Virus record (IMG/VR): IMGVR_UViG_3300027971_000255
Span: 1 to 21,247 of that record
Strand: one strand, 5' to 3'
Length of the DNA: 21,247 nucleotides
Source: a virus
Position numbers and translations under genes: made by a program. Below, in pieces: positions 60-16,409 of this stretch. The notes below the pieces were generated by a model, which saw nothing but the letters and a program-made list of their open reading frames with translations, was not told where the DNA came from and made no database searches. The first letter of the stretch is position 1, and each line of letters starts with the position of its first letter.

Positions 60-1115
60 ATGCAAACAGAATCTCTAAAAATTAATAAGAATAAATTTGG
101 TCGCACAATTTATGATGAGGCCAAAGTTTTAGAGCTTCGGGCAACTGGGCTAGGTATGAGAAAAATTCACAATCAAACGCTTATTCCCAAAACGACACTT
201 CATAGAATCTTTAAGCGCAACAACATTGAAACTTTTCCATATCAGACAAAAAGATGGGGCAACGCATTCCGGATTAAGGAAAGAAAAAGGATGGTTGGGC
301 AAATATTCAAAAGGGGATCAGAGGCAAGAACTATAACGGCCAAAGTTATTAGGGCAATTAGGGTTGGTTCTTCTTTGTTTGAATCAATAGAAAGATGCGG
401 GGCTTGTCCAGAAATAGCCTTACGATGGCTCAAAAAAACAAAAAGCTATGATGCCCTTAAATGGAGAGAGCAAAAAAGAAAGATATCACTTGGCCTATCG
501 GCAGAACAGATGGAGCTACAAAAAGAACATCGCATTAAGAAAACGATGGAAATGCGAAAGGCAAAGTATATAGAAGCACGAAAAAATACCGCCATTCTGA
601 TCAAATCATTAAGGGCTGGGATACCGATTGAGATCACGGCAAATCAACTCGGCCTAAACAAATCAACCGCATGGAATTGGGTATATAAAACAAAAGCGTA
701 TAAAATTTTGCGGAATAAAATGAATTGCAATTTGAAATACCCCCGCAAAAAGAATATTGGGGTCTTGTCTAAAAAATACACATCGGAAAAGAAAATGATG
801 CCCGATGCTCGCCAATATGTTGTTGCGGCAAACATCGGCAAGGGCGTTGTCGAGGAAAAGGAAACATGGAAAACAAACCAAATTGGGCAGGGGAGATCGG
901 GACTAAGGGCGGATTTTTTTGTAAAAGAAGATAACCATATATACGAATGCAAGCAAAGGTGTGATCCCGGAACATCTCAAAGAATGATAGGGCAAATTTT
1001 CATTTATATAATGGCGGGGTATAGGGTTTCGGCAATAATGCCAAACGACATTATTATCCCAAGCTACCTATCTGAAGCCCTTGAAAGAATGAAAGTCGAA
1101 ATGATTCTTATATGA
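60..1115 (+). CDS. HTH-repeat protein with C-terminal PD-(D/E)XK-like nuclease domain
   Basis: A 351-residue basic protein, probably a DNA-binding nuclease. Three helix-turn-helix-like segments are visible at about residues 22-53, 94-135 and 178-217. The second and third share a W-x-x-KTK-[SA]-Y-x-x-L ending, so they look like an internal duplication. The C-terminal part (about 275-330) has the layout of a PD-(D/E)XK nuclease: D285 in RADFF, then E296 and K298 in YECK, then Q312 in a following helix. The start ATG has no obvious Shine-Dalgarno sequence. The stop overlaps the next gene as ATGA. The gene is visibly more AT-rich than the terminase genes, which suggests separate acquisition. It could be a homing-type endonuclease, a recombination nuclease or a packaging accessory; the sequence does not decide. 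The nuclease fold is inferred from motif spacing only. Confidence 0.6.
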   Translation: MQTESLKINKNKFGRTIYDEAKVLELRATGLGMRKIHNQTLIPKTTLHRIFKRNNIETFPYQTKRWGNAFRIKERKRMVGQIFKRGSEARTITAKVIRAIRVGSSLFESIERCGACPEIALRWLKKTKSYDALKWREQKRKISLGLSAEQMELQKEHRIKKTMEMRKAKYIEARKNTAILIKSLRAGIPIEITANQLGLNKSTAWNWVYKTKAYKILRNKMNCNLKYPRKKNIGVLSKKYTSEKKMMPDARQYVVAANIGKGVVEEKETWKTNQIGQGRSGLRADFFVKEDNHIYECKQRCDPGTSQRMIGQIFIYIMAGYRVSAIMPNDIIIPSYLSEALERMKVEMILI

Positions 1116-1576
1116 AATACCCACAACTTCTAACAAAAAGAATCAGCGAACTTTCTCCCGCAAAATACAATCCCAGAAAAATTACTTCTGATGCTTTGGG
1201 TAGGCTCACAAAATCTTTGAGCGAACTTGGGAATCTTCAGCCGATAACTTGGAACGCCAAGACCGGGAACATAGTCGGAGGCCATCAGCGGCTGAAATGC
1301 TATCAAGCCCTCGGCAAAGATGAAATCGAGGTATGGGCGGTCTGGTTGGATGAGGCAAAAGAGAAGGCGGCGAACCTAGCTCTTAATAAATTGAGTGGCG
1401 AATTTGATATGCCCCAACTCAAAGACATCCTAGAGGAACTGGACGCAGGGGAGATCGACATAGATATTACCGGGTTCAGCTTGGATGAGATTGGAAAGAT
1501 GATGGAGGCCACTAGCCCAGAAGATGAGAAGGGTGGAGAGGGCGAGAAATGCTTGGCGTGTGGGAAGCCCTTGTGA
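1112..1576 (+). CDS. ParB/sulfiredoxin-like domain protein
   Basis: A 154-residue protein with the N-terminal ParB-like fold. YNPRKI (19-24), the LGNLQPI stretch (39-45) and the signature GGHQR (56-60) followed by a helix with LKCYQALG are all present. In the family this fold binds nucleotide (CTP or ATP) or acts as a nuclease. Phage copies commonly sit beside DNA methyltransferase or terminase genes. The C terminus is acidic and ends with a CxxC pair (C147, C150) only a few residues from the end, so no complete zinc ribbon is visible. Its ATG overlaps the upstream stop (ATGA), and the next gene starts 3 nt after its stop, so it is translated with the packaging genes. There is no HTH domain of the plasmid-partition type, so a chromosome-partition role is unlikely. 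Function in the phage is unknown. Confidence 0.75.
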   Translation: MKYPQLLTKRISELSPAKYNPRKITSDALGRLTKSLSELGNLQPITWNAKTGNIVGGHQRLKCYQALGKDEIEVWAVWLDEAKEKAANLALNKLSGEFDMPQLKDILEELDAGEIDIDITGFSLDEIGKMMEATSPEDEKGGEGEKCLACGKPL

Positions 1577-2384: not shown

Positions 2385-2686
2385 AACGCTCGCCCCTCAA
2401 ACGCAAAACCCCACTCAAGCGAGGGGGGAAACTACTCCGAGTGTCTGCCAAGAGACGAAAGCAAAACGAGGTCTATTCTGATGTGCGAGAGAAGTTTCTA
2501 GGCAACACACCAGTCTGCCAAGTTTGCCAAAACAAGATGGCGAGCCAAGTTCACCATAGGCGAGGGAGGTTCGGGGATAGGCTTAATGAGGTTGAGTTTT
2601 TCTTGGCGGTTTGCTTTGAGTGCCATCACAAAATCCATATGAACCCAGCGTGGGCGTATGCAAAAGATTATCTGGTTAAGAGATGA
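2381..2686 (+). CDS. HNH endonuclease
   Basis: A 101-residue HNH nuclease. The N terminus is very basic (MKRSPLKRKTPLKR). The structural zinc site is visible as C46xxC49 and C78xxC81. The catalytic His-Me core is H58-H59 (VHHRRGR), a candidate N69, and H82/H86 in the CHHKIH end. Small HNH proteins beside terminase genes are known in cos-type phages, where they work with the terminase in genome end cleavage. That role is inferred here from position. The gene is placed between small and large terminase and overlaps the large terminase start by ATGA (2683-2686). Length is normal for this family. Confidence 0.85.
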   Translation: MKRSPLKRKTPLKRGGKLLRVSAKRRKQNEVYSDVREKFLGNTPVCQVCQNKMASQVHHRRGRFGDRLNEVEFFLAVCFECHHKIHMNPAWAYAKDYLVKR

Positions 2687-4458
2687 ACATCGGGGCGTTC
2701 AGCCGTAGTTTCTTTGAGCCAAGAGAGCAACTATCAATTCCAGAATGGGCAGAGAAAAACCTTACGCTCTCGGCAAGGGTAACGAACATACCCGGAGCAT
2801 ATTCGACAACACTCACGCCCTATGTTCGTGAACCCCTAGGGGCTTTTGGTGATGATTCAATTCGGAGGGTGGTGTTGGTATGGGGGGCGCAGACCTCAAA
2901 GACTACAACGATTCTCGCTGGCCTAGCCTACCGAGTAGCAGAGCGGCCTTGCCCGGTCTTGTGGGTGATGCCCTCGGAACATCTAGCCCGATCATTTACA
3001 GAAACCCGCTGGCTTCCGATGGTGGACGATTGCCCAGCCCTAGCCAAAGAACGGCCAGAAAATACAGACCGAATCAAAATCCTAGAGCAACATTTTAAGC
3101 GATGCTCAGTCTGGTGGGCGGGAACAAGTGCCTCGGCTCTTTCTAGTCGCTCGATTGCTTTGCTCTGTATGGATGAGGTGGACAAGTTTCCAGAGCAAGC
3201 AGGGTCGGGGAGGGAGGCCAATCCGGTGCAGTTAGCGGAAGCACGAGTCAGCACCTACCCCAATCATTTAATCATAGCAACTAGCACCCCGACAACTGCC
3301 GACTCAATAATTTGGGCTGAATGGCAGAAGGGCGATATGCGTTTCTATTTTGTGCCTTGCCCCCATTGTGGATTAAAACAAAAACTAATCTGGGGACAAG
3401 TGAAGTGGGACGAGGCCGCCAAGATAGAAGATGGCGTTTATGATTATGCCCTAGTGAAATCCTCGACCTACTACGAATGCGAGGGATGCAAGGGCAAGAT
3501 TCAGGACGGCCAAAAAACCAAGATGCTCAGAGAAGGGGAGTGGAGGGCAACCAATCCCAAGGGCGAACCAGCCAGACGCTCGTATCACCTCAACGGCCTA
3601 TACGCTCCGTGGGTTAGCTTCGGGAGCTTGGCGGTCAAGTTCCTACAAGATAAGCACAGCGGGATTATCGGCCTGCAAGATTTCGTGAACCGAGTTCTTG
3701 CCGAGCCTTGGATGGAACACGAATCAGAAAAGATGCAGATCGTTCCCGGTGCTTACAAGATGGGCGAGGTTCGGATGGGCGATAAGCTGATTATGAGTTG
3801 CGACATTCAAGAGGCTGGGGGCTTCCACGCTTGGTGCGTTGTGAGGGCTTGGGATTTAGAGGGCAAACCAAGGCTTGTGTGGGCGGGTAGGCTAGAAACT
3901 TGGGGCGACATAAAGGCAAAACAAGACGAGTTTGGTGTTGAGGATAAATGTGTCTTAATTGATTCGGGCGATCAAACCAGAGATGTATATTTGAATTGTT
4001 GCAAGAACGGCTGGGTGGCGTTGGTTGGCTCGGACAAGACCAGCTTCTCCGAGATCGTCAATGAGCAGAAGGTGCAAAGGCCATACGCTCGAATCGCAAA
4101 TGGCGACCCCTTCTCTGGTAAGGCAGTTCAATCAAGGGCGGGGTGGAAGTGGAAGCTCTGCCCGATTTGGAGATGGTCGAACCCATCCATCAAAGACATA
4201 CTCTCCCAGCTTCTCAAAGAGGAGGGATTCATCGCCCTAGATACGCCGGATGTTTGGAAGGTGCATATCGAAGCAGAGGTGAAGGTAAGAGTGAAAAATC
4301 CTATGACTGGCAGGGAAAGACTTGTATGGAAGCAAGTCGGGAAGCACAATCATTTAATGGATTGTGAGTGCATGAATATCGTGGGGGCGGCACTCCACGG
4401 AAGGCTCAAAGTTTCCCCCGCAAGTTTGACAGAGGAGGTTGAGAATGGCGAAGGGTGA
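2683..4458 (+). CDS. Terminase large subunit (lambda gpA family)
   Basis: A 591-residue packaging motor and nuclease that cuts concatemeric DNA and pumps it through the portal. The ATPase domain has a Walker A-like WGAQTSKTT (67-75). It departs from GxxxxGK[ST], as is usual in the gpA family. Walker B is ALLCMDE (159-165, with D164/E165). A zinc-finger-like insertion follows: C226xxC229 and C266xxC269. The C-terminal nuclease shows the expected acidic residues in SCDIQ (D374), LIDSGD (D427) and NHLMDCE (D560/E562). Length fits the family. The last 14 nt overlap the gpW-like gene. This is one of the firmest calls in the window. Confidence 0.95.
   Translation: MNIGAFSRSFFEPREQLSIPEWAEKNLTLSARVTNIPGAYSTTLTPYVREPLGAFGDDSIRRVVLVWGAQTSKTTTILAGLAYRVAERPCPVLWVMPSEHLARSFTETRWLPMVDDCPALAKERPENTDRIKILEQHFKRCSVWWAGTSASALSSRSIALLCMDEVDKFPEQAGSGREANPVQLAEARVSTYPNHLIIATSTPTTADSIIWAEWQKGDMRFYFVPCPHCGLKQKLIWGQVKWDEAAKIEDGVYDYALVKSSTYYECEGCKGKIQDGQKTKMLREGEWRATNPKGEPARRSYHLNGLYAPWVSFGSLAVKFLQDKHSGIIGLQDFVNRVLAEPWMEHESEKMQIVPGAYKMGEVRMGDKLIMSCDIQEAGGFHAWCVVRAWDLEGKPRLVWAGRLETWGDIKAKQDEFGVEDKCVLIDSGDQTRDVYLNCCKNGWVALVGSDKTSFSEIVNEQKVQRPYARIANGDPFSGKAVQSRAGWKWKLCPIWRWSNPSIKDILSQLLKEEGFIALDTPDVWKVHIEAEVKVRVKNPMTGRERLVWKQVGKHNHLMDCECMNIVGAALHGRLKVSPASLTEEVENGEG
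4433..4438 (+). promoter_or_regulatory. Strong Shine-Dalgarno deciding the gpW-like start
   Basis: A perfect AGGAGG lies inside the end of the terminase gene, 6 nt before the ATG at 4445. It rules out the in-frame TTG at 4439, which would touch the Shine-Dalgarno sequence directly. A TTGACA hexamer sits just upstream (4426-4431). Confidence 0.75.
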
Positions 4459-4678
4459 TTTCATTGGGCTACCCCTTGCCACCCTAACTTCTCTGCGTGA
4501 TAAGTATGTGACTTGTCTTGAGGCGATTGCGGTGGCTGGGTCTAGCTATTCGATAGCGGGACGCTCTTTTTCTAGGGCGAATCTTGGGGAAGTTCGTGAT
4601 ACTATCGCAGAGCTAACCCTTGCCATCCAGTCTGCCAACGGCACTCGTATCCGCACGACCTACGCCAACTTCTCGTGA
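4445..4678 (+). CDS. gpW-like head-completion / head-tail joining protein
   Basis: A 77-residue protein in the gpW slot, between large terminase and portal. The sequence reads as helix (LATLTSLRDKYVTCLEAI), a beta hairpin (SYSIAGRSFSRANL), then helix (GEVRDTIAELTLAIQSA). This helix-hairpin-helix layout is that of the gpW fold, which plugs the portal and supports tail attachment. The ATG is chosen by the AGGAGG upstream. The end (TYANFS) overlaps the portal GTG start (GTGA). The family call rests on length, predicted layout and synteny, not on a strong motif. Confidence 0.7.
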   Translation: MAKGDFIGLPLATLTSLRDKYVTCLEAIAVAGSSYSIAGRSFSRANLGEVRDTIAELTLAIQSANGTRIRTTYANFS

Positions 4679-7600
4679 AAAAAGCCCAGCTAAACTTAAT
4701 CGATAAAGCTGTTGCCTTTCTGAACCCGCAGGGGGCAGTTAATCGTATGATTGCACGGCAAAAGCTCGTCAACTTCTCTTACGATGCGGTCAAATATACA
4801 AGGGAACGCAAGGGGCCGAGTTCGCTTTCTGGTGCGGAAGATTATCGTTCTAACTATGACCGAGTGGAGCTGATGAAAAGGGCGAGGGACTTGGCAGAGA
4901 ATGTCGGCCTTGTTCGCTCCATCCTTATGAAGTTCGCCAGCCACACCGCCGCAAACATTTCCTACCAAGCCCGAACAGAAAACCCCGAGGTCAATACAGA
5001 GGTTGAGGCATATTGGGCAGAGTGGTGGGACAAGTGCGACATCTCCACAAGGCACACCGGCTCAACCCTTATGCAGGTCGCAATGATGAGTATGCTCCGG
5101 GATGGTGACTTCCTTTTCGTTTTGGTTCGCGATAAGGATGGCAACTTAAAGATTCAGGGCATCGAGGCAGATAGAGTAGGCGACCCATTTAAGGTTTATA
5201 CAAGCCTAGATTTGATCGGTGGAATCCATATTGATCGGGATACTGGTGCGCCGAGTGCCTACGATATTTACAACCGAAGCATCGGGGACTTCTACACCTA
5301 CCAAGCAACAATCCCCGCAAGCCAAGCCTTTCACCTATTCGACCCGCTCCGCATCGACCAGTACCGAGGAATCTCCGCTTTCCATACGGCCATAAATGAT
5401 TGCACAGACATTTACGATATCGTGAACTTTGAGAAGATGGCGGCACGAGTTGCCTCTTCTCAATCCGCAGTTGTTCGCAGGAATAACAACAATGCCTCTG
5501 ATCTCTCCACGCTCACAAACGATGAGAATGTTAATGGTGATACTATCAAGCTAGAAGCGATTGAGTCTGGCAAAATCTCCTACCTAGAGCCGGGTGAGGA
5601 CATCGTGTTTCCCGATGGGCCGAGCCGTCCCTCTGGTGCGTTCGCAGAGTTCCACAAGATTCTCCTCCGCAATATCTGCCTTGGCCTTGGCATCCCTTAC
5701 AGCTTCGCCGTTGACCCTTCCGCTATGAGTGGCCCGACTGCTCGCCTTGAGATGCAACAAGCAGGGCGAACCTTCCGCAGATACCAGAAGCTCCTAGATG
5801 ATAAAGTTCTTCGACCCATTAAGAACATCGTGATTGCCGATGGGGTGGCAAGGGGATTGATTGAGAACAATGTTGGAACAAGAACGACGAAGGGCATCTT
5901 TAACTTTGGGGCGAATGTATCTATTGATTTAGGGAGAGAATCTGCCTCGGCCATCTCCGAGTTCAAGACCGGCCTCAGAACTGCCGCCGATATTTACGCA
6001 GAGAGAGGCCAAGATTTTGAGAGTGCTATGCGACAAAGGGCGATTGAGGCCAAGCTAGTGAAGGATTTGGCTGGAGAGTACGAAGTGTCGGCAGACACGA
6101 TTTCCGACATTGCCGCAGAGGGATTGACCAGAGATTCACAAAAAGCACAAGCGACCCCAACAGAAGGCGAACAGACACCCGCTGGACAACCTTCGGACGA
6201 GGATATGCTCGGTGGTGCTTCACTCAATGGAGCGCAAGTTGCCTCCCTTATCAATGTTATCAATGCCGTGGCGATGGGTGCAGTTTCCAAGGAGGGTGCA
6301 GTATCTATCATCACCGCCGCCTTCCCGACCATCAGCCCAGACCAAGCAAGGGCAATCGTGGCGGGAGTCAACATTGGGACAACTATCCCCACGACCAAAG
6401 AAGAGAAACAGCAGATCGCAAAAGACCAAGAAGGGGATTCTTCGGGAGGCTCAACACCCCCAGCCCCAGAACCTACTATGCCCCCGACCGCCCCCACGGC
6501 AACCTCACAAAAAAAAAGTAGTTTAGAGATTTTAGAAAGCCTCGACCCAGCTTCTATTAAGATGCTGATTGAGGGGATGATGGGCGGGATTGAGTTAGCA
6601 AAATACGATGGGATTGATTTTACACCCCCAGAAGGAGCTAGGGATGCCGCTAAAAGAGCCTTAGATGTGCGGGAGACAAAACCACCCAGCCAAAGGGGAA
6701 TGACCCCTGTTGGCCTTGCTAGGGCGAGAGATTTAATCAATGGGGTTAAGATGTCTCCCGACACCATCAAAAGAATGAAAGCCTTTTTCGATAGGCACGA
6801 AGTGGACAAGAAAGGCTCGACCTTTGCGGAGCAAGGAAAGGGCTGGCAAGCGTGGAATGGATGGGGTGGGGATGCTGGATATTCTTGGGCTAGGAAAGTA
6901 GTTGGACAGATGGAATCTAGGGACAAGAAAGAACTAGCAGAACCAGAGACTTGCCCCCTGCCCACTCAAGACATCAAAACAAATCTAGCCAATAGGCAGA
7001 CAGCCGTGGACGATGCAAACTACGGCCCAGCCAATCCTAACGAACCCAACGAGGACTACTGGAAAGCCAAGGCAGACGAGTTCCAAGGCGATGTAGACAC
7101 GGCAAAGAAAATGCTTTGCGGAAATTGTGCGGCTTTCAACCAAACCAGCAAACTTCTAAATTGCATAAAAGGCGGGATAGGGATTGATGCTGATGAGGTT
7201 GCGGTGGCTGGCGATCTAGGATATTGCGAGATTTTTGACTTTAAGTGTGCGGCCAAAAGGACTTGTGACGCTTGGATTGTTGGTGGGCCGATTACCGATA
7301 AGAAAGAAGAACTAGCCCGACCAGTCTCCCAAACCCCAGCCCCTCCTAAAGAAAGAATCAAAGGCTCGAAAGAAAACCCCGAAGGCACGGCATCCACAAG
7401 AAGCAAAGCAGGGGACATTGAGATTTCAGAGCAGAACGAAGAAGCCCTCAAGAACAAGATCGCCGAGTTCAAGGACAAGCACCCCGCAAGAAAAGCCCCC
7501 ACCATTGGGGCATTGAAGAAAGTTTTTCGCAGGGGGGCGGGTGCGTTCTCTACCAGCTTTAGGCCAACGATTACCGGTGGGAAACCCAACTCACGCAACG

Positions 7601-9150
7601 CTTGGGCGATGGCTAGGGTGAATAAGTTTCTCAAGATGGCTGGTGGCGGTGAAGTCAAAGACTCCTACCGCCAAGCAGACGGCGATTTGTTAGAGGAAAT
7701 ATGTAGCGAGAAAACCGAGTTCGTTGCAGGCAGGGATTGTGGACAAGATGATGGCGGTACTTTCGGGCCAGATAATAAGTGTGCTGTTGGCTATGGGAGA
7801 CCACCACTCAAGGGAGGCTATACTCCAACCAGACCCGGAGGGAAATTCCCCAAAGATTATAAAAGGCCAACCCAACAAGACGGCAAAGGCAAGAAACCAC
7901 TTCCTCCAAAACCACCAGCACCAAAGCCACCCCTGCCACCACCGCCCCCGCCACTCCCTGCTGGAACAAAAAAGCCAACAGAAGAAAAGCCAACCATAAA
8001 ATCTAAATTCCCAAATGCGACCAAGGCATATGACAGCAAAGAGAGAGCATCGCTAGACCCAGTTATTAAAGAAAATCAAAAAGAATTTGATTCGATTAGA
8101 GAAAATATAATTAAAGAGACAGCAAATGCACAGAAAGAATTAGTATCCGCAGAAAGCAAATACCAAGAAATACAACAAAATCTAAAGGAAACTCAACTTA
8201 AAATTTCAAATCTAGTCGAAACACGAGACAAGCCCGGTGTAGATGCCAAAAGTTATGCCGAGGCCAAGTCACAGCTAGAGCAAGAGTTTAATAAAAGACA
8301 AGCCTTAAAAGAGGAATTGCAAAGGCCAGAAAAACTTATGCAAGAGGCAAGGCAAAAAGTTAGGGAAATTGGGCTTAATGCCATTCGCAAGGATATGCTA
8401 GATATAAACAAACAAGACGGATTTACCCCAGAACAATTAAGCAAGGCCACAGAAGAATTAAAACAAAAACAACAAGTGGCAATAGCAACAGACAAAAGAT
8501 CAATAAGAGAAAGCAAGGGCGATCTTGCAACAAAAACAAGAGAAAAAGGACAAGATGTTTTAAGATCAATCTTCAATCCCAGCATACACTCCGAATCGCT
8601 TTCAAAACCAATAAAATATTCAGGAACAAGCAGAGAATATTCAGATGGACAAACAATAGAATTTATTGATGGGACGAGAGCTGGGGCATTAAATGGAATA
8701 GTAATTAATAAAAATACAACCTTAAAGACAATACTTCACGAATACGGACATCAAGTTGAAAACGGAAGCCCAGAGGCACACGACTTGTGTTCTGACTTCC
8801 TTAAAAAAAGAACTAAAGGAGAAAAGATTGAAAGATTCCAAAGGGTTTTTAGGGGGTATGGGTTTGGAAAGAGTGAGCAAGGATCGCCAGACGATTTTGA
8901 AAAATCTTTTAAGGCTGTATTTCCAGAAAGAGAATCAAAAAAAGCCGCTTATTATGCCGGAAAGGTATATCGAGAGACAACTGTTGGGGCAAGCTCCAAG
9001 TCATTGGCAAGCACAGAGGTTTATTCTATGGGGCTAGAATTACTGCATCACAACCCAGTTAAGTTTGCTCAAGCCGACCCAGAGTGGTTTGATCTTGTGT
9101 CTGGGATTGCAACTGGTAGGCTACTCAAGAAGACAAGAGGACTTAAATAA
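4675..9150 (+). CDS. Giant multi-domain portal protein with C-terminal metallopeptidase-like domain
   Basis: Residues 1 to about 490 are a lambda gpB-type portal, the dodecameric DNA gate. Examples of the fit are the NYDRVELMKRARDLAEN stretch near the N terminus and the GIPYSFAVDPSAMSGPTARLE region. The usual length is about 500-550 residues; here the frame runs uninterrupted to 1491. After a Pro/Thr-rich linker come, in order: a helical domain (about 620-740) with HEVDKKG at 708; a Cys-rich domain with C815xxC818 through C864; a basic domain (about 923-1005) starting KHPARKAPT and ending ADGDLL; a short GRDCGQDDGG-type motif region (about 1019-1043); a polyproline hinge (about 1075-1096); a coiled coil (about 1123-1222); and an HExxH domain (H1355, E1356, H1359, with a candidate third ligand E1448 in STEVYSMG). 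It starts at a GTG overlapping the gpW-like stop. The extra domains are probably virion-internal cargo; that is inference. The part after about 8000 is clearly more AT-rich. Confidence 0.85.
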   Translation: MKKAQLNLIDKAVAFLNPQGAVNRMIARQKLVNFSYDAVKYTRERKGPSSLSGAEDYRSNYDRVELMKRARDLAENVGLVRSILMKFASHTAANISYQARTENPEVNTEVEAYWAEWWDKCDISTRHTGSTLMQVAMMSMLRDGDFLFVLVRDKDGNLKIQGIEADRVGDPFKVYTSLDLIGGIHIDRDTGAPSAYDIYNRSIGDFYTYQATIPASQAFHLFDPLRIDQYRGISAFHTAINDCTDIYDIVNFEKMAARVASSQSAVVRRNNNNASDLSTLTNDENVNGDTIKLEAIESGKISYLEPGEDIVFPDGPSRPSGAFAEFHKILLRNICLGLGIPYSFAVDPSAMSGPTARLEMQQAGRTFRRYQKLLDDKVLRPIKNIVIADGVARGLIENNVGTRTTKGIFNFGANVSIDLGRESASAISEFKTGLRTAADIYAERGQDFESAMRQRAIEAKLVKDLAGEYEVSADTISDIAAEGLTRDSQKAQATPTEGEQTPAGQPSDEDMLGGASLNGAQVASLINVINAVAMGAVSKEGAVSIITAAFPTISPDQARAIVAGVNIGTTIPTTKEEKQQIAKDQEGDSSGGSTPPAPEPTMPPTAPTATSQKKSSLEILESLDPASIKMLIEGMMGGIELAKYDGIDFTPPEGARDAAKRALDVRETKPPSQRGMTPVGLARARDLINGVKMSPDTIKRMKAFFDRHEVDKKGSTFAEQGKGWQAWNGWGGDAGYSWARKVVGQMESRDKKELAEPETCPLPTQDIKTNLANRQTAVDDANYGPANPNEPNEDYWKAKADEFQGDVDTAKKMLCGNCAAFNQTSKLLNCIKGGIGIDADEVAVAGDLGYCEIFDFKCAAKRTCDAWIVGGPITDKKEELARPVSQTPAPPKERIKGSKENPEGTASTRSKAGDIEISEQNEEALKNKIAEFKDKHPARKAPTIGALKKVFRRGAGAFSTSFRPTITGGKPNSRNAWAMARVNKFLKMAGGGEVKDSYRQADGDLLEEICSEKTEFVAGRDCGQDDGGTFGPDNKCAVGYGRPPLKGGYTPTRPGGKFPKDYKRPTQQDGKGKKPLPPKPPAPKPPLPPPPPPLPAGTKKPTEEKPTIKSKFPNATKAYDSKERASLDPVIKENQKEFDSIRENIIKETANAQKELVSAESKYQEIQQNLKETQLKISNLVETRDKPGVDAKSYAEAKSQLEQEFNKRQALKEELQRPEKLMQEARQKVREIGLNAIRKDMLDINKQDGFTPEQLSKATEELKQKQQVAIATDKRSIRESKGDLATKTREKGQDVLRSIFNPSIHSESLSKPIKYSGTSREYSDGQTIEFIDGTRAGALNGIVINKNTTLKTILHEYGHQVENGSPEAHDLCSDFLKKRTKGEKIERFQRVFRGYGFGKSEQGSPDDFEKSFKAVFPERESKKAAYYAGKVYRETTVGASSKSLASTEVYSMGLELLHHNPVKFAQADPEWFDLVSGIATGRLLKKTRGLK

Positions 9151-9158
9151 GGCATTCT

Positions 9159-9407
9159 ATGACTAAAATTACAATTTCTTTTTTAGGGGAAAACATCTCA
9201 ATCATCATAGATGATGGAGAGATTTCAATAAACACGAAAAACAAGGCTGTTTTAGAGCTAATAGAATCCATATATTCTGACCTATTGGCATCATACAGCC
9301 CCGCAGACGGCTCTCTAGGCGGCAATCTAGCACAAGAACTGGTCAAAGTTGGGGCAAAAATTATAGAAGTCGCCGAGCCATCTATGGAAGAAGACCTAGT
9401 TTATTAG
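9159..9407 (+). CDS. Small hypothetical protein (82 aa)
   Basis: An 82-residue acidic protein with no recognised family. It starts with beta-like strands (KITISFLGENISIIIDDGEISI) and continues as a helix (AVLELIESIYSDLLASY), then a Gly-rich turn and a second helix. It starts 8 nt after the portal stop, with only a weak AAGG-like ribosome site, and shares the AT-rich composition of the portal C terminus. It may therefore have arrived with the portal extension. Lying between portal and protease, it could be a head accessory protein. The overall pattern is too plain to assign more. Confidence 0.6.
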   Translation: MTKITISFLGENISIIIDDGEISINTKNKAVLELIESIYSDLLASYSPADGSLGGNLAQELVKVGAKIIEVAEPSMEEDLVY

Positions 9408-9432: not shown

Positions 9433-10527
9433 ATGCCCCTGCCCCTACCTTCCGCAGACGAATCCGAACAAGACTTTGTATCCCGCTTTATGGGTGACGA
9501 AGAGGCAGTATCCAAGTTCCCAGATGAAACTCAGAGGGCGGCGGTTGCCTATTCTACTTACAGGGATGAGGAGATGGAGGAAATGGAGCTAGGCGGGGTG
9601 AGCATTTTGGAGGTGGGAGAGGCTAAAGGACACGACCTTTTTGTGGATAAAACAAGCCTAGAGACTGCCCTCAAACTTATGCAAGAGGCTAAAAATGGCA
9701 CTAAGGCAAAGATGAATCATGGCTCTGGATTGGAGGCCGTCGTAGGTTTTTTAAGGAATCCCCGCATCGATGGAGACAAGCTGGTGGCCGACCTTCGCTT
9801 ACTACGCAACTCCCCCCACTACGGCCTAATCAAAGAGATGGCATCCGAAGCCCCCGACCAGTTCGGCGTTTCCCTAGCCTTTGTGAACGAATCCGAAACC
9901 ATCGAAGGCAAGGATTACATTCGCCCCCAGAGCATCGCCTCTGCTGATTTAGTTTCCAGCCCAGCCGCCACAAACGGATTGTTTGAGGAGATGGTGAAGT
10001 TTATGGAAAAACTCGGTTATGTGCAGGGAGGCAAGACCATCCCAGCCGTAGCCAAAGAAGCCGTGGAGGAAGCTCCATTTGACAAAAAGGACAAAACAAA
10101 TATGGAAAACAATTATATGAAAGATATCGAGGACATCAAGGTTCGCCTAGCGGCCATTGAAGATTCGATGAAACCCAAGAACGAAAAGATGGCCGAAGCC
10201 CCTGTAGACGAGCAAGCTGTTGCCAAAGAAGATAAGGCAGTTGCCGAGGGTGCAAAAGCCGAAGGCGAATCTGTTGATGAGGAAAAGCAAGAGGAGATGA
10301 GCGAAGTCGTGAAGAAAGTTCTGACCGAGTTCGGCATTAAGCCCATCCCCGCCTCTCCTTCAATCGAAGTTCCTTCCCAGAAAAAGGAAGAACCCAAAAC
10401 TTTTGAAGCTCTCGTGGCCGCCCATAGCGACTACGGAACAAGCAAGCTCAAGGCAATGAAAGCCGTGATGCTCTCTAACCCAACCGAATACACCGAGGCT
10501 CTGTCTCGTGGTATTACCAAACTCTAA
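9433..10527 (+). CDS. Prohead protease with C-terminal scaffold region
   Basis: A 364-residue protein. The N terminus (about 1-45; SEQDFVSRFM, KFPDETQRAAVAYS) is a short module I recognise from other phage prohead proteases. The following domain (about 55-190) is protease-like: H96 in KMNHGSG, S147 in FGVSLAF and D172 in SADLVSSPAAT give a plausible His/Ser/Asp set, as in assembly-type serine proteases. From about 200 to 364 the protein is rich in Glu, Lys and Ala with helical stretches, and it ends in a small helical domain (LSNPTEYTEALSRGITKL). This is typical of a scaffolding core that is degraded after capsid assembly. The position matches lambda C/Nu3, between portal and capsid. An internal start at 10102 may give free scaffold. 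The exact peptidase family is unsure. Confidence 0.8.
   Translation: MPLPLPSADESEQDFVSRFMGDEEAVSKFPDETQRAAVAYSTYRDEEMEEMELGGVSILEVGEAKGHDLFVDKTSLETALKLMQEAKNGTKAKMNHGSGLEAVVGFLRNPRIDGDKLVADLRLLRNSPHYGLIKEMASEAPDQFGVSLAFVNESETIEGKDYIRPQSIASADLVSSPAATNGLFEEMVKFMEKLGYVQGGKTIPAVAKEAVEEAPFDKKDKTNMENNYMKDIEDIKVRLAAIEDSMKPKNEKMAEAPVDEQAVAKEDKAVAEGAKAEGESVDEEKQEEMSEVVKKVLTEFGIKPIPASPSIEVPSQKKEEPKTFEALVAAHSDYGTSKLKAMKAVMLSNPTEYTEALSRGITKL
10102..10527 (+). CDS. Possible nested scaffold product from an internal start
   Basis: An in-frame ATG at 10102 inside the protease gene would give a 141-residue acidic helical protein (MENNYMKDIEDIKVRLAAIE...), exactly the scaffold-like part. It follows an AAAAAGG stretch (10085-10090) and a TTGACA at 10079-10084. 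In lambda, Nu3 scaffold is made the same way within gene C. A second in-frame ATG lies at 10117. The spacing of the Shine-Dalgarno-like element is long, so this is an inference. Confidence 0.35.
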   Translation: MENNYMKDIEDIKVRLAAIEDSMKPKNEKMAEAPVDEQAVAKEDKAVAEGAKAEGESVDEEKQEEMSEVVKKVLTEFGIKPIPASPSIEVPSQKKEEPKTFEALVAAHSDYGTSKLKAMKAVMLSNPTEYTEALSRGITKL

Positions 10528-10934: not shown

Positions 10935-11900
10935 ATGGCATATGTAAGCGGTGGAACGACTATTCGGGCAGATCTAAACCAAGCGTTGATCGAAGCCCCT
11001 CAAGCCGATGTCGGTTTGATTGGAGCGAATTTGCTCCCTTTGCAGAATGTTGATGCAAAGGCTGGAACATACCTCAAAGTTCAATTAGCTGGTGGAGAAT
11101 TGCTCTCCAACAATGCACTCGCTCGTGAAAGTGGTTCTAGCTACAGCCGAGGGATTCGTTCCTTCGCCTCTGCAAACTACGCAACGAACGAGGTAGGACT
11201 TGAGGAACTCGTACCGGATGATAGTGCAAAAGATTTGAATAGGTTTTTTGCATATGAGGCCGAAACTGCGAAGTTCTTGCTTCGTCAGTTGAAGCTCTCC
11301 CACGAGAAGCGGGTGGCCGATCTTCTCTGGAACGCAACGACTCCCTTCACAATCGCTGACCAGACTCGTGCAGTTGCCTATACGCAAGCGTTAGTTGCAA
11401 CAGTCGATGTGGCTCGTGATGTGGCGGCGGCCAAGTTGGCTCTTGCCCAATACGGCTATGAGTCCAACTGCGTTGCGATGTCTGCCAATGTGTTTGAGTT
11501 AATCAGACGCTCCACCCTTCTCCAAAATCAGTTCTTCGGAGTTGTCTCGAATACTGGTGCTCGTTTGCTCTCTGAACAAGAGATTGCGGCGGCTCTGGGA
11601 GTTCAGAATCTCCTTGTTGGTCGTGCGGCTTATAATACCGCTGGCAAGAACAAGACCTACTCTGGTTCGTTCATCGTTCCGGACACCAAGATCATCGTTG
11701 GTCAAGTGTCTGGTGGTGAGTTCACCGCTGGTGGAATCGGACGCACCTTGGTCTGGTCGGGTGACTCGGCTGGTGGTTTCGTCTCTGAAAGCTATCGTGA
11801 CGAATCTCGCCGTAGCCAAGTGTTGCGTGTGCGTATGAACACCGACGAGGTCGTGATTGACCCGAATGCGGCGGTTCGTATCACCACAAACTTCGCCTAA
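10935..11900 (+). CDS. Major capsid protein (HK97 fold, lambda gpE type)
   Basis: A 321-residue shell protein. The N-terminal part (ALIEAPQADVGLIGANLLPLQNV) and the region RGIRSFASANYATNEVGLEE are typical of capsid proteins of the gpE-like group. A P-domain-like helix (ARDVAAAKLALAQYGYESN) is followed by VAMSANVFELIRR, then LSEQEIAAALGVQNLLVGRAAYN, a pattern I know from phage capsids of the HK97 fold. The C-terminal YRDESRRSQVLRVRMNTDEVVIDPNAAVRI stretch is the usual beta end. Codon use is GC-richer and smoother than in neighbours, consistent with high expression. The gene is followed by a strong terminator, as expected for a highly expressed capsid gene. An AAGAAAG ribosome site precedes the ATG. 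Confidence 0.9.
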   Translation: MAYVSGGTTIRADLNQALIEAPQADVGLIGANLLPLQNVDAKAGTYLKVQLAGGELLSNNALARESGSSYSRGIRSFASANYATNEVGLEELVPDDSAKDLNRFFAYEAETAKFLLRQLKLSHEKRVADLLWNATTPFTIADQTRAVAYTQALVATVDVARDVAAAKLALAQYGYESNCVAMSANVFELIRRSTLLQNQFFGVVSNTGARLLSEQEIAAALGVQNLLVGRAAYNTAGKNKTYSGSFIVPDTKIIVGQVSGGEFTAGGIGRTLVWSGDSAGGFVSESYRDESRRSQVLRVRMNTDEVVIDPNAAVRITTNFA

Positions 11901-12003: not shown

Positions 12004-13656
12004 TTGAAATATCCTATCTCCACCTATTTAATTGCTGGCAATGAAGAAGAATACATTGGCAGATGTTTGGAAAGTTTCAAACCCATTTCAGCGGAGCTTG
12101 TTGTCTGCATCGCTAGGGGGAATCTTGTCCCAGACAAAACAGAAGAAATTGCCAAAGGTCTGGGTGCGAAAATCGTTCACTACCAGAATCAAAGAACTGA
12201 TTGGCCTCACATAGACGATTTTGCAACCGCAAGGAACACGGCTCTTGGTGCGTGTTCAAATGAATGGTGTTTATGGGTCGATGCTGACGATATAATGGCC
12301 GAGGATGGGGCGAAGGTTGTCGAAGAAGCTATTGACCTTGCCGTTGAGAAAGACGCTCACCTCGTAGCGTTAAAGTACAATGTGGACAACGCCGGACTCA
12401 TTCCCCTCCGAGAAGAAATCTCAAAGAGGGGAACTTGCCATTGGAAGAACCGAGTCCACGAAATGCTTGTTACTAAAGAGCCAAACAAAACTATTGGGCT
12501 AGATAAGATTTTCAGAATCCACAAACCTAACGGCTATAAGGCCAAAAGTGCGGAAAGGAACTTCAACATCCTAGCCGACACGCTTTCCACCGCCCCAAAC
12601 GCCCTTTACTACCAAGCTCAAGAATACTTCTTATCGAATCAGATGGACAAGTGTATTGAGTCCAGCTTGCGAGCCTTAACCTTTTCAGAGCTAGAAGATA
12701 CGCTTCGCTATGATGTGCTTTGCAATCTTGGCCGATGCGTTCCAGACAATGAGAGGCTTTCTTATCTAGGGCAAGCAGTAGCCCTGCAACCAGACCGCCG
12801 AGAGGCTTATTTTTATATAGCGAATCATTGGGCGGGGAAGGGCAACTGGATAAAGACCTACGGCTCGGCAAGGGCTTGTATGACTTTGCATAGACCAAAA
12901 ACCCACTACTGGAATCTTGTCGAGGCAATCTACAACTGGCAAGCGATGGACTTATATGAGACGGCCTCGGTGTGTGTGGGAGAGGCTAGCGAAGCTGAAA
13001 AGATTAAGAAGATGCGACCAGCCCCTAAGATCAGCATTATCCACGCCACCAAAGGAAGGCCACAAGTCGCTTGGCAAAGACGCTGGCAATGGCTTTCCCT
13101 AGCCCAAAAGCCCCTAGAGGTTGAATGGTTGTTTATGGTCGATCACGATGAGGCCGTCGACTACACCCCCCACCAAGCCATTAGGTGCAATCCCGGAGGC
13201 ATCGTCAACGCTTGGAACGCAGGGGCAAAGTTAGCCAAGGGGGACATTATCATTCAAATGAGCGATGATTGGACACCACCCCGCCATTGGGATGCCCTAA
13301 TTTCGACCGCTATGGGGGATACAGCGGAGGAGAAAGTGTTGGCAGTATCAGATGGCCTCCGAACCGATAAACTGCTTTGTATGGCGATTCTGACGCAATC
13401 TAGGCTCAAGAAACAGGGGGAGATGTTCTGCCCAGAATATCAAGAATCCGATGGCATATATTCCGACAACGAGGTGACCGACCGAGCTTATGAGGATAGG
13501 GTAATAGTTGAGGCTAGACATATCCAATTCAAACACGAGAATCCGATGTTCACCGGAGGCAACCCCGATGACCTACTTAAAAACCACAATAAACCCGAAC
13601 ACTACCAAAGGGGGAAAGCAATCTATGAAAAACGCAAAGCAAATAATTGGATGTAG
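12004..13656 (+). CDS. Two-domain glycosyltransferase (GT2-TPR-GT2)
   Basis: A 550-residue protein with two GT-A folds. The N-terminal GT2 domain (about 1-190) begins ISTYLIAGNEEEYIGRCLES and has the metal-binding motif WVDADD (D93, D95, D96), then CHWKNRVHE. Residues about 196-330 are helical repeats of TPR type (NALYYQAQEYFLSN, AVALQPDRREAYFYIANHW). A second GT2-like domain begins at PKISIIHATKGRP (341-353) and has GGIVNAWNAGAKLAKGD followed by IIIQMSDD (D421/D422). It probably adds two sugars or polymerises a short glycan; the acceptor is unknown. The TTG start is used because the fold begins at once and no upstream ATG is open. No clear Shine-Dalgarno sequence is seen. It is the first gene of the accessory cassette, after the capsid terminator. 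Confidence 0.8.
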   Translation: MKYPISTYLIAGNEEEYIGRCLESFKPISAELVVCIARGNLVPDKTEEIAKGLGAKIVHYQNQRTDWPHIDDFATARNTALGACSNEWCLWVDADDIMAEDGAKVVEEAIDLAVEKDAHLVALKYNVDNAGLIPLREEISKRGTCHWKNRVHEMLVTKEPNKTIGLDKIFRIHKPNGYKAKSAERNFNILADTLSTAPNALYYQAQEYFLSNQMDKCIESSLRALTFSELEDTLRYDVLCNLGRCVPDNERLSYLGQAVALQPDRREAYFYIANHWAGKGNWIKTYGSARACMTLHRPKTHYWNLVEAIYNWQAMDLYETASVCVGEASEAEKIKKMRPAPKISIIHATKGRPQVAWQRRWQWLSLAQKPLEVEWLFMVDHDEAVDYTPHQAIRCNPGGIVNAWNAGAKLAKGDIIIQMSDDWTPPRHWDALISTAMGDTAEEKVLAVSDGLRTDKLLCMAILTQSRLKKQGEMFCPEYQESDGIYSDNEVTDRAYEDRVIVEARHIQFKHENPMFTGGNPDDLLKNHNKPEHYQRGKAIYEKRKANNWM

Positions 13657-13879
13657 GAAAGCAAAAAAGGGGGAAGATACCAAGGGGCTTGGTATGATTA
13701 AATTCGGGAAGTCTCGCCCCGACCCCACCAAGTATGTGAAGGTTGATATTACCTATGACGAAAAAGCAGAGAAAGATTTGTATGAGTGCGGGATGATTGC
13801 GTTAAAGCACGACAAGGAAGCAGTCATTCAATATGTGATCGTGAAGGCTCTTACTGGATACGCAAAGTGCAAGAAATAA
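13625..13879 (+). CDS. Small hypothetical protein (84 aa)
   Basis: An 84-residue basic protein starting inside the end of the glycosyltransferase gene. I chose the ATG at 13625 rather than further upstream because a purine-rich AAAGGGGGAAAG lies just before it and the earlier part of the frame is only a shadow of the glycosyltransferase. The product has an N-terminal Lys-rich stretch, then KYVKVDITYDEKAEKDLYECGMIAL and a helical end with VIQYVIVKALTGYAKC. No family is recognised. The strand-helix pattern could form a small adaptor. It is likely co-translated with the methyltransferase that follows. Confidence 0.6.
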   Translation: MKNAKQIIGCRKAKKGEDTKGLGMIKFGKSRPDPTKYVKVDITYDEKAEKDLYECGMIALKHDKEAVIQYVIVKALTGYAKCKK

Positions 13880-14475
13880 GCATCCACGACCCCTTCGGCC
13901 AAGCCCTTGCAAAATATAGCGAGGGACTAGAAGTAGGGCTAGAGATCGGGGGAGGAACTGGGGACGGCTCGACTCAATGTATTAGGACGAAAAGACTATT
14001 CAGCATCGAGAACCACCCCGATCGCATCGGAAGGCATTCGATGAATCTATCTGCAAGGGGAGGCGTTGCTATCAATGGAACGGCAACCCTATCAAAGCTC
14101 TGGATGAACAAGAACGACATCGAGGAATTTTATCGAACCATCAAAACAAACCTAAACCAATACCCGCTCGAAACAGTTCTGGGTTGGCATAATGTCTGCC
14201 TAGAAACCGCCTTTCCATATTCAACCAACGCCATAGAGGATATTCACTTTGAACATAATGTAGATTTTAACTTTGTTCTAATTGATGGCTCGCCTTTTTC
14301 GGGTGAGGCAGAGTTGCGTTGCGTCCGTCCCTTCCTAGCAGAGAAAGCAATCATCGCATTGGACGATGTGAACGACATTAAGAATTTGGCGAACTATAAC
14401 AAGCTCAAGGGATTTGCCAAACTGCTTTGGGAAGATTGGTCGGTTCGTAATGGTGCGGCCATCTTTGAGCTATGA
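13867..14475 (+). CDS. SAM-dependent methyltransferase (class I, MT24-like)
   Basis: About 203 residues from the GTG at 13867. The fold signature is clear: motif I GLEIGGGTGDG (about 24-34), FNFVLIDGSPFSGEAE (about 134-149) and AIIALDDVND (about 161-170), the pattern of Methyltransf_24-type enzymes. These transfer methyl groups to sugars or other small acceptors. The frame is open 81 nt further upstream, but that part is the other-frame image of the preceding gene, so a start at or near 13867 fits better; the Shine-Dalgarno sequence is weak. The end overlaps the next gene as ATGA. Flanking glycosyltransferases suggest that it caps or decorates a glycan. Acceptor unknown. Confidence 0.75.
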   Translation: MQEISIHDPFGQALAKYSEGLEVGLEIGGGTGDGSTQCIRTKRLFSIENHPDRIGRHSMNLSARGGVAINGTATLSKLWMNKNDIEEFYRTIKTNLNQYPLETVLGWHNVCLETAFPYSTNAIEDIHFEHNVDFNFVLIDGSPFSGEAELRCVRPFLAEKAIIALDDVNDIKNLANYNKLKGFAKLLWEDWSVRNGAAIFEL

Positions 14476-14984
14476 CCAAGGGAATCATCACATCGGAATC
14501 ACCCGAAATCCATTGGGAACATCTTAATGTAGCTGGCGGCAGGGTGCTTGACTTGGGGTGTGCGTTCTGGACTGAATCAGAAAGGCAAGAGGCCAACGGA
14601 ACGACTAAGTATTTTCTATCACAAAAGCCAGAGTTTTATATGGGGGTGGACATAAACCAAGGAGACATTCAAACCCTTTCTCAACAATACCCACAAGGAA
14701 AGTTCTTGTGCGAAAAGGCAGATTCCGCATTCCAAATGGATACTTGGATAACAGAGAACTCTATCACCCACATTAAGTGCGACATCGAGGGAGACGAGAC
14801 TCAACTTCTGCAAATTGGGAATGTCCACAATCTAAAAGAAATTGCCATCGAGCTACACTATTCAGACGCTTGGTTAGAGGAGTTTATGGCTTGGTTTGAT
14901 TCGATTGGGTTTGAGTGCTACCGGCACGACTCAATTTCTTTCTGTCCAGAGATTAGCGTTATTTATGGTCGCTTGAAATGCTAA
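14472..14984 (+). CDS. Methyltransferase-like protein (FkbM-type)
   Basis: A 170-residue class I methyltransferase. Motif I is GGRVLDLGCAFW (22-33), the ribose-binding acidic position is D60 (YMGVD) and the later motif is HIKCDIEGDE (100-109), which closely matches the K-x-D-[VI]-EG-x-E signature of FkbM-type O-methyltransferases. It is shorter than most family members (200-280 residues). The C-terminal strand-helix pairs (EIAIELHY, AWFDSIGFECYRHD) are present, so it is probably a compact but complete enzyme. It overlaps both neighbours by a few bases. It likely methylates a sugar hydroxyl on a product of the adjacent glycosyltransferases. Confidence 0.7.
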   Translation: MTKGIITSESPEIHWEHLNVAGGRVLDLGCAFWTESERQEANGTTKYFLSQKPEFYMGVDINQGDIQTLSQQYPQGKFLCEKADSAFQMDTWITENSITHIKCDIEGDETQLLQIGNVHNLKEIAIELHYSDAWLEEFMAWFDSIGFECYRHDSISFCPEISVIYGRLKC

Positions 14985-15745
14985 CCATCTTTACCATCGT
15001 CCTCAATGGGATGCCCTACATCCAAAGGCATCTATCAGAATTTCAGAAACTCAAGATTCCGTGGGAGTGGAGGATTGTCGAGGGAGTGGCCGAGCCTCTT
15101 GGATGCACCCGCTGGTGCAAGCAAGTTCCAGAGAAGTACCATAAGAACTTTGTGAGCGTAGATGGAACGCACGAATATCTTGAGAGCATTAAGGACAAGA
15201 ATGTTTCAGTTTGTTGGCAAGCCAAGCCCTTCCCCGGCAAGCTGGCGATGATTGGCGAAGCGTTGCGAGGAGTGGAGGGGGGAGTTGTGATGGAGATCGA
15301 CTCTGATGAGATATGGAGAGCCGACCAGCTAGAGGCAATCTTCGGGCATCTCAAGGGATGCGAGGAGGGGCGAGCGATGCAGTTCCATTGTAACTATTAT
15401 GTGGGGCAGAATAAAAAAGTAGTGACTAGGGAGGGCTTTGGCTCGAACTGGTACGAATGGTTTAGGGCTTGGAAGTGGGGGAAGGATATTCACTTTACCA
15501 GCCACGAACCGCCCAAACTAAATGTCCAGTCAATGATGATTCCAAGGGGAGTGACTGAAACTTGGGGGCTAACCTTTGACCACTTCGCCTACGCCACAAA
15601 GGAGCAAGCACAATTCAAGGAAGATTTCTATGGGTATAAAGGGCTAGTCGAGGGATGGGAGAGGCTACAACAAACAACCAGCCCAGTTCGGTTGAGAGAT
15701 TATTTGCCATTCATAACAGACAAGAGCGTTGCCGATGAGTGTTAA
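14978..15745 (+). CDS. Glycosyltransferase, GT2-like (GT-A fold)
   Basis: A 255-residue protein. The start LTIFTIVLNGMPYIQRHL is the nucleotide-sugar-binding beginning of a GT-A enzyme, and MEIDSDEIW (105-113) carries the DxD-type metal site (D108, D110). Between them lies CWQAKPFPGKLAMIGEALRG, where GT2 proteins track the donor. The C-terminal part has many aromatics (NWYEWFRAWKWGKDIHF, WGLTFDHFAYAT), usual for acceptor binding. The ATG lies 7 nt inside the end of the preceding gene. It resembles predicted phage and bacterial GT2 proteins that glycosylate surface polysaccharides; donor and acceptor cannot be told. Confidence 0.7.
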   Translation: MLTIFTIVLNGMPYIQRHLSEFQKLKIPWEWRIVEGVAEPLGCTRWCKQVPEKYHKNFVSVDGTHEYLESIKDKNVSVCWQAKPFPGKLAMIGEALRGVEGGVVMEIDSDEIWRADQLEAIFGHLKGCEEGRAMQFHCNYYVGQNKKVVTREGFGSNWYEWFRAWKWGKDIHFTSHEPPKLNVQSMMIPRGVTETWGLTFDHFAYATKEQAQFKEDFYGYKGLVEGWERLQQTTSPVRLRDYLPFITDKSVADEC

Positions 15746-16409
15746 AACTATTAAGTATTCGCAAAGGTTGGGGGATGTGCTTCGTTGCCTGCCAGCCGCC
15801 AAGCATCTAGCCGACCAAGGCCACGAAGTTTTCTTTGATTGCCTCGCTCAATACCACGGAGTTTTTGAACTGACTAGCTATGTGAAGGCTGGGCATAGGA
15901 TGGGTGATGTTATTGATCTTGAGGTATGGCCGAACCAGTACGAGGCTTATCGGAAAAGCAAAAGAAGCTGGACTGACTTTATTTATAGCCATCCAGAGAT
16001 TAAGGAAGCAGACAAGACTAACATTGTCCTAGATAAGCTAGACGACAAACCAGCCGAGGGACTTCCAGAGTCTTACAACCTAGTTGCCCCATTTGGGCTA
16101 TCTCAAGGATACTATCGAAACCCACTAGAACTAATCGTAAGGGCTAGGCAAACTATGGGCAAAGACAATTTCTTTGTCCTATGCCCAGCCGACATAAAGA
16201 TTCAAGGGTTAAGCACCTACACCGCCCCATCGGTTGAGCAGATGGCAAAGGCAATCCGAGGGGCTACGGACTTTTGGGCAATCAATAGCACCCCGATAAT
16301 CCTTGCTTCGGCAACTAGGAAAGACAAGCAAACCGGCTTCTTCCCCCAGAAGAACGAGTGGGAAACTGACAACATTTTCGACTTTGAGGGGCTAACAAGG
16401 ATGGATTGA
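15735..16409 (+). CDS. Glycosyltransferase family 9-like (heptosyltransferase fold)
   Basis: A 224-residue protein. The beginning VKTIKYSQRLGDVLRCLPAA matches the GT9 start (a GDVL...LP stretch before the first helix), and PSVEQMAKAIRGATDF followed by WAINSTPIILASA matches the GT9 site where an Asp/Ser-Gly-Pro-His-like motif binds the donor. Here it reads NSTPIILA, so the usual His is absent. The protein is shorter than LPS heptosyltransferases (over 300 residues), so it may be a compact or partly inactive enzyme. The ATG at 15735 is preferred to the in-frame TTG at 15729. It ends the sugar cassette, 16 nt before the connector genes. Confidence 0.6.
   Translation: MSVKTIKYSQRLGDVLRCLPAAKHLADQGHEVFFDCLAQYHGVFELTSYVKAGHRMGDVIDLEVWPNQYEAYRKSKRSWTDFIYSHPEIKEADKTNIVLDKLDDKPAEGLPESYNLVAPFGLSQGYYRNPLELIVRARQTMGKDNFFVLCPADIKIQGLSTYTAPSVEQMAKAIRGATDFWAINSTPIILASATRKDKQTGFFPQKNEWETDNIFDFEGLTRMD

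Follow-up and report, generated by a model that had tools for sequence, protein, structure and literature searches.

Polymorphic toxins carried by MuF proteins (PMC3482391, PMC5576092, PMC11699363) join a conserved head-protein N-terminus to a variable enzymatic C-terminus, such as an ADP-ribosyltransferase (ART) or a metallopeptidase, and are encoded in the head gene cluster with a small open reading frame (ORF) directly downstream. One of them, Bxa, is antibacterial and is blocked by the product of the adjacent gene, Bsi (PMC11699363). ART, 2H, PBECR and Nudix domains fused to MuF or to the portal were described by Iyer 2017 (PMC5512222) and Iyer 2022 (PMC9503650), where zincin-like metallopeptidases were the commonest domain and packaging followed by injection was proposed. 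Portal-MuF fusions are known from Microbacterium phage clusters EA/EB (PMC7302621) and from Halorubrum tailed virus 28 (HRTV-28). Here we describe a portal gene (4675..9150) in a stretch of DNA described as that of a freshwater phage, namely positions 1 to 21,247 of IMG/VR record IMGVR_UViG_3300027971_000255 (the window; all features given below as start..end lie on its + strand). The product of this gene continues past a lambda-type portal through a chain of further domains to a predicted zincin-like metallopeptidase domain, referred to as G, and relatives with near-identical portals carry other domains, or none, in its place.

The locus resembles the MuF polymorphic toxins in its general architecture, and the G domain and its small partner gene are common to it and to MuF carriers. 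In contrast to these toxins, however, the carrier is the portal itself, devoid of a MuF domain; the cassettes of the lineage are inserted internally as well, where they can break the carrier gene in two; and no sign of lysogeny was found in 15 related records. Compared to the portal-effector fusions and polyvalent proteins of Iyer and colleagues, the lineage displays many tails on one near-identical portal, defined insertion slots, a recurring Cys/Gly tag and a small gene as dedicated partner. The EA/EB and HRTV-28 portals likewise have an extra head domain welded to them, with HRTV-28 further sharing a module (B, below) located between portal and MuF, but their extra domain is the structural MuF and no swapping series of effectors has been shown for them. 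T4 Alt and other packaged enzymes are head-carried and injected, as is proposed here for the tails, but are separate proteins and not parts of the portal. Portal-effector and portal-MuF fusions are thus already published, and the new part is the near-clonal exchange of cassettes, the tag and the partner family. A literature search of partial coverage returned no description of cassettes that turn over rapidly on a near-identical portal or that split a portal gene, nor of the G partner family or a tag common to several portal families. The reading that we favor, with moderate confidence, is that a lambda-type portal anchors exchangeable effectors that would ride inside the capsid and reach the host; we infer the delivery step, the toxicity and the immunity.

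The long frame begins with GTG and encodes 1491 residues as a single intact gene. The frame is also present in two contigs from other IMG records (L002 and L083) at 99.98% nucleotide identity over 11.9 and 12.6 kb, and the ratio of nonsynonymous to synonymous substitution rates (dN/dS) against relatives stays within 0.02-0.22 wherever divergence is measurable, from the core through the tail. The same tail and partner gene further recur in more than a dozen diverged relatives. Given the copies in two assemblies and purifying selection throughout, 4675-9150 is one selected gene and not a join. The sequence-only reading had described one polypeptide without a stop and had named a sequencing error or assembly join as what would overturn it; an artefact of this kind was ruled out on these grounds, and the probability that we leave to it is negligible.

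Residues 1-480 (4675..6114) form the portal core. Phage_portal_2 (PF05136) matched residues 58-371 with an E-value of 9.8e-54 and 183.3 bits, against a curated cut-off of 32.9; PHROG portal family 21 spans residues 1-505; and solved portals, including the lambda-type 8k38, align through residue 469, in agreement with the earlier assignment of the first part of the protein to a lambda-type portal. The equivalog cut-off of TIGR01539 'portal_lambda' was missed (117.5 vs 172.7). Since solved portals reach query residue 469 near their own C-termini (chain 8vhx_D, for instance, to 531 of 560), some 1010 residues extend past a complete portal. In known portal structures, chains beyond the portal C-terminus point into the capsid interior. 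The domain string read earlier from the letters of the window does exist: the core is followed by linker A (residues 481-640, 6115..6594), module B with its HEVDKKG...WNGWGG signature (residues 641-752, 6595..6930; phrog_2859, 2.7e-22), the Cys-rich module C (residues 776-905, 7000..7389), module D (residues 906-1005, 7390..7689), which ends in ADGDLL, linker E with the tag and a polyproline hinge (residues 1006-1110, 7690..8004), a helical segment F (residues 1111-1300, 8005..8574), probably a coiled coil judging from its sequence and helical over its last ~60 residues in the AF2 model, and the HExxH (HEYGH) domain G. Module D is DUF5824-like (PF19141, E 0.0045, below the curated cut-off). 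A full Pfam scan of the 1491 residues returned Phage_portal_2 and this weak DUF5824 match only; a MuF domain (PF04233) within the window protein was thus considered and rejected.

Scanning IMG/VR yielded 233 relatives of the portal core, 80 of which were kept. Identity over the core is 90-100% in the first relative set and extends down to about 76% in further relatives with a G tail. The 78 closed ORFs range from 800 to 1491 residues, such that long, domain-bearing portals are not rare; nor does the view that fusion to a portal is uncommon hold, since the fusion is polymorphic within the lineage, occurs independently in other portals, including tagged ones of other families, and had been published before (PMC5512222, PMC9503650, PMC7302621). 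Tail classes were counted on 68 distinct closed proteins and placed on a nucleotide tree of the core. The terminal domain was zincin-like with an HEYGHNxH motif (H) in 21 proteins, G in 16, ART-like in eight and of another type in four, while 19 had none. Altogether, nine tail classes required 24 changes on the core tree, where the minimum possible is eight. The nearest core relative of the window (L005, 94% nucleotide identity) has an ART-like tail and the next nearest (L004) no tail. A constant N-terminal carrier is thus combined with variable C-termini in close relatives, as is characteristic of polymorphic toxins. The tail of L081 was recognized by Pfam as ART (5.5e-10, above cut-off), and family support is confined to this one; the names ART1, ART2 and ParB-like given to other tails were read from the sequence and have no Pfam recognition. 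With different enzymes found at one and the same position in close relatives, the portal, the ring through which DNA exits the capsid, resembles a loading dock for host-aimed proteins.

Cassettes occupy three sites: slot 1 at the boundary of the linker and B (linker A of the window), slot 2 between B and C-D, and slot 3 after D, the window type. In slot 2, the cassette ends in a stop and C/D resume on a new gene, usually with a 4-nucleotide overlap and a new leader; relatives with the portal and C-terminal parts on separate genes, whose existence the sequence-only reading had suggested checking, are thereby found within the lineage. Where a relative has no terminal effector, its protein ends at ...ADGDLL, and the following gene begins 16-17 nucleotides on. 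For the pair of window and L010, synonymous divergence (dS) reaches 0.69 in the core and 0.64 in D but 0.00 in B and 0.01 in C; the locus is a mosaic built by recombination. Two further observations concern these cassettes. HEYGHNxH tails (L272, L286 and L290, and slot-2 loci such as L007, L008 and L032) are followed at about -4 nucleotides by a ~28-residue leader, MIxxKDFxxxKYxxAMxxYIxxLFG, which stands alone as a tiny ORF in three contigs and is elsewhere joined in frame to the C/D protein; it may be the partner proper to this tail. In L056 and L075, the separate C/D protein encoded after the portal has a tag of its own and a further C-terminal domain. Since this second polypeptide bears both, one genome can carry two effector cassettes.

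Domain G (residues 1301-1491, 8575..9147) is predicted from its motif and family to be a zincin-like peptidase. HEYGH occupies residues 1355-1359 (nucleotides 8737-8751) and is followed by a third ligand, Glu1448 (nucleotides 9016-9018), giving the HExxH plus distal Glu arrangement by which zincins are recognized. Across 69 aligned sequences, H, E, H, YxGxxY, the distal E and one D are invariant, and the window has all of them; in a second count, HExxH and the distal E were found in 65/65 sequences. The AlphaFold2 model of G (m9e35fd92ff58) reached a pLDDT of 85.6 and a pTM of 0.86, and matched other phage head proteins in Foldseek. Neither the tail sequence nor the G profile matched a solved peptidase in PDB sequence searches. 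Outside of the window lineage, 33 of 47 G carriers have a MuF domain by Pfam, with G at the extreme C-terminus, and three further portals end in G (L133, Phage_portal_2; L136, Phage_portal plus MuF; L233, Phage_portal). The C-terminal domain is thus common to other carrier families, both MuF proteins and portals, as in polymorphic toxins. Polyvalent proteins combine several different effector domains in a single chain. In the window protein, G is the one recognizable catalytic domain beside B, C and D; an ART-like and a ParB-like module appear, to judge from the sequence, on one chain in relative L055. In Planktothrix phage PaV-LD (L105, ORF079-081), two adjoining proteins end in G and the protein preceding them has two ART-like repeats; all three have another Cys motif, CVKPTxYNCGxxCIN, and the annotation of ORF081 is that of a structural protein of the virion.

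A metallopeptidase at the end of a portal might act in head maturation, cutting its own portal chain or those of adjacent subunits in the prohead so as to free B-C-D or the stalk, with the small partner serving as a timing inhibitor and the tail being morphogenetic. Precedents exist in the SPN3US portal gp81, which loses a 254-residue N-terminal propeptide to the prohead protease (PMC10052503), and in the metallopeptidases of polyvalent proteins such as P1 DdrB, which were suggested to self-process (PMC5512222). Near-identical cores, however, end in an ART-like tail, in another zincin-like domain or in none, so that G is not needed for assembly, and a putative separate protease/scaffold gene occupies the usual position (9433-10527). 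We consider a maturation role quite unlikely on this balance. The narrower proposal that the HExxH domain is the head maturation protease was rejected, most close relatives being without G.

Eight nucleotides past the stop of the portal-tail gene begins a gene for an 82-residue protein (9159..9407), the partner of G and a candidate immunity or inhibitor protein. The arrangement is general: 67 of 80 non-redundant genes with a C-terminal G are followed by an ORF of 60-120 residues at -20..+15 nucleotides. When each partner in turn was held out together with all sequences sharing over 50% identity with it, 45 of 66 partners were still recovered at E<0.05. A profile built from partners outside the window lineage found 13 of the 15 lineage partners at E<0.05, the window's at 8.5e-6, the best value among the other ~3150 ORFs (set of 3217) being 0.87. 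Partners measure about 70-110 residues across G carriers and are more divergent than G in 2045 of 2080 pairs. The window partner has a predicted beta-beta-beta-alpha-alpha-beta fold (pLDDT 79.7); searches of Pfam and PHROG and tblastn against cultured phages gave nothing for it. In Firmicute carriers of G, this position is taken by another small gene, one with a helical product. Within the window lineage the small gene accompanies the candidate toxin domain only, tail-less relatives having no partner gene, and a partner gene was not found for all other tail classes. Its position after G is that of immunity genes after toxins, which suggests the candidate role given above. Many phages have metallopeptidase tails for which the family would thereby offer a cognate small protein; cultured phages of Lactococcus, Bacillus and Flavobacterium are among them, and make the toxin-immunity relationship testable.

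The same small gene could instead encode a chaperone or loading factor that holds the peptidase in an inactive or soluble state until packaging, the tails then being host-directed but non-toxic enzymes of anti-defence or take-over. The lack of temperate signs (no integrase or resolvase in the 15 related records) agrees with such a use, as does T4 Alt, a packaged and injected ART of host take-over (PMC5512222) with which ART tails would fit. The fast divergence of the partner and the precedent of MuF toxin-immunity pairs, on the other hand, suit an immunity gene at least as well, and we regard the non-toxic alternative as unlikely, if worth keeping in mind.

A second recurrent element is the Cys/Gly tag with which the cassettes of the lineage open (CGTGAGGFKEGNTCAGGG). 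The window version, CGQDDGGTFGPDNKCA (residues 1022-1037, 7738..7785), is a variant of CGxGxGGFxxGNxCA. Scanning IMG/VR with the general tag motif alone returned at least 120 stretches, from which 50 ORFs were taken. Among the matches listed, 20 of the 50 tag ORFs were portals, six from the window lineage and 14 from outside; the latter belonged to the Pfam families Phage_portal_2, Phage_portal and Portal_Mu; in all of these portals the tag was C-terminal to the portal domain, with another 118-612 residues after the tag; and some tag proteins matched ART-PolyVal, ADPrib_exo_Tox or Zeta_toxin. Tentatively, at least three Pfam portal families may share a loading code in which the tag marks where cassettes are attached, with lytic phages swapping cassettes and partners faster than the portal diverges; the idea is plausible, if short of probable. 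The tag site is possibly also where cassettes are cut free or passed to the DNA channel. With the tag as a handle, effector cassettes become searchable in virome data that lack annotation. One contig (L322, IMGVR_UViG_3300044858_004394) has an array of H-like zincin proteins, and the genes after it bear a related tag, FCPTGSGGGVDNSC; the idea may thus also apply to effectors that stand alone. The gene in protease/scaffold position of another relative (L076:5596-7095) has a Cys/Gly tag and an insertion, bringing its product to 500 residues vs 364 in the window; cassettes can thus enter this gene too.

If portals anchor effectors as we propose, up to twelve subunits would each project into the capsid, next to the DNA, a chain made up of B, C, D, the tagged hinge, a helical stalk and a head resembling a zinc peptidase. 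The whole tail, or a fragment released from it perhaps by a prohead protease, would then enter the host with or before the DNA, where the peptidase would cleave a host protein, be it a defence or a housekeeping target, while the 82-residue protein would bind and block the peptidase during virion production. Differences in targets and in host counter-measures would explain why relatives exchange cassettes. A number of points weigh against this proposal. The G model found no fold match in the PDB search, so that the label 'zincin' draws on motif and family, and the partner model found none either. The tails of L034 and L055 are separated from the next gene by 17-21 nucleotides and have no partner, and the gap after the tail of L033 and L045 holds no ORF. 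The portal ring remains in the virion, and injection therefore requires a release step. Finally, MuF toxins are reported from temperate phages, whereas no integrase or resolvase family (Phage_integrase, Resolvase) was found in the 15 related records, which span 31-39 kb and are of uncertified completeness; a role in lytic take-over or anti-defence is accordingly no less likely than one in competition among lysogens. What the anchoring proposal brings is a portal ring that carries changing host-directed enzymes in a near-clonal lineage, making it testable whether a tethered effector is kept, cut or injected.

The modules between core and tail look, from their distribution in other phages, like putative phage head modules. 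In Roseobacter and Synechococcus phages, the portal has an ordinary length of ~500 residues and module B starts the next gene, a protease-capsid fusion, a second setting in which the HEVDKKG module and the portal are separate genes; B is also N-terminal on its own gene in Vibrio phages. It is part of the portal in Haloarcula tailed virus 3 (761 residues) and, together with a MuF-like region, in Halorubrum tailed virus 28 (1139 residues). Module C has 52% identity to Actinomycetia phage DSL-LC01, in which C and D are on separate genes, and is a stand-alone gene in other phages, annotated 'high potential iron-sulfur protein'. Relative L036 is without C and D, and module D is thus dispensable.

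At the module B border (window 6565-6600, residues 630-642), an in-frame ATG ATG (residues 635/636) is preceded six bases upstream by GAGGGG. The locus could on this basis make two products, the full-length portal-tail and a B-to-G protein from the internal start, only the latter entering the head as cargo. The precise coincidence of the motif with the border, the opening of separate genes by module B in Vibrio and Roseobacter phages, and the synthesis of C/D from a separate start in slot-2 relatives all fit an internal start. The exact motif is kept in 56 of the 68 relatives but missing in the other 12, and codon conservation around the site extends past the Shine-Dalgarno-like bases, such that the signal is not specific. 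We find this two-product scheme improbable and give it little weight next to the single anchored chain.

The portal gene is embedded in a head gene block. The large terminase subunit, of gpA type (2683..4458; GpA_ATPase 2.3e-61, GpA_nuclease 4.2e-15 in Pfam), and a gpW-like head-tail adaptor overlapping the portal start (4439..4678; phrog_118, 2.8e-8) precede it. Downstream lie the putative prohead protease/scaffold gene (9433..10527), a decoration-like protein and the major capsid protein (10935..11900; phrog_1005, 2.7e-26). The 9433 gene is named from its position: Pfam and PHROG gave no family match for its product, tblastn against cultured phages gave nothing, and hhalign against annotated proteases found nothing; its homologues hold the equivalent position in MuF phages. 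Searching genome contigs with the portal core for a host or prophage gave none. Between capsid and tail genes (window 12004-16409), several genes look by eye like glycosyltransferases or methyltransferases, which is unusual inside a head-tail block. Near the terminase genes (window 1112-1576), a stand-alone protein is likewise ParB-like by eye, and ParB-like portal cassettes occur in L047 and L055.
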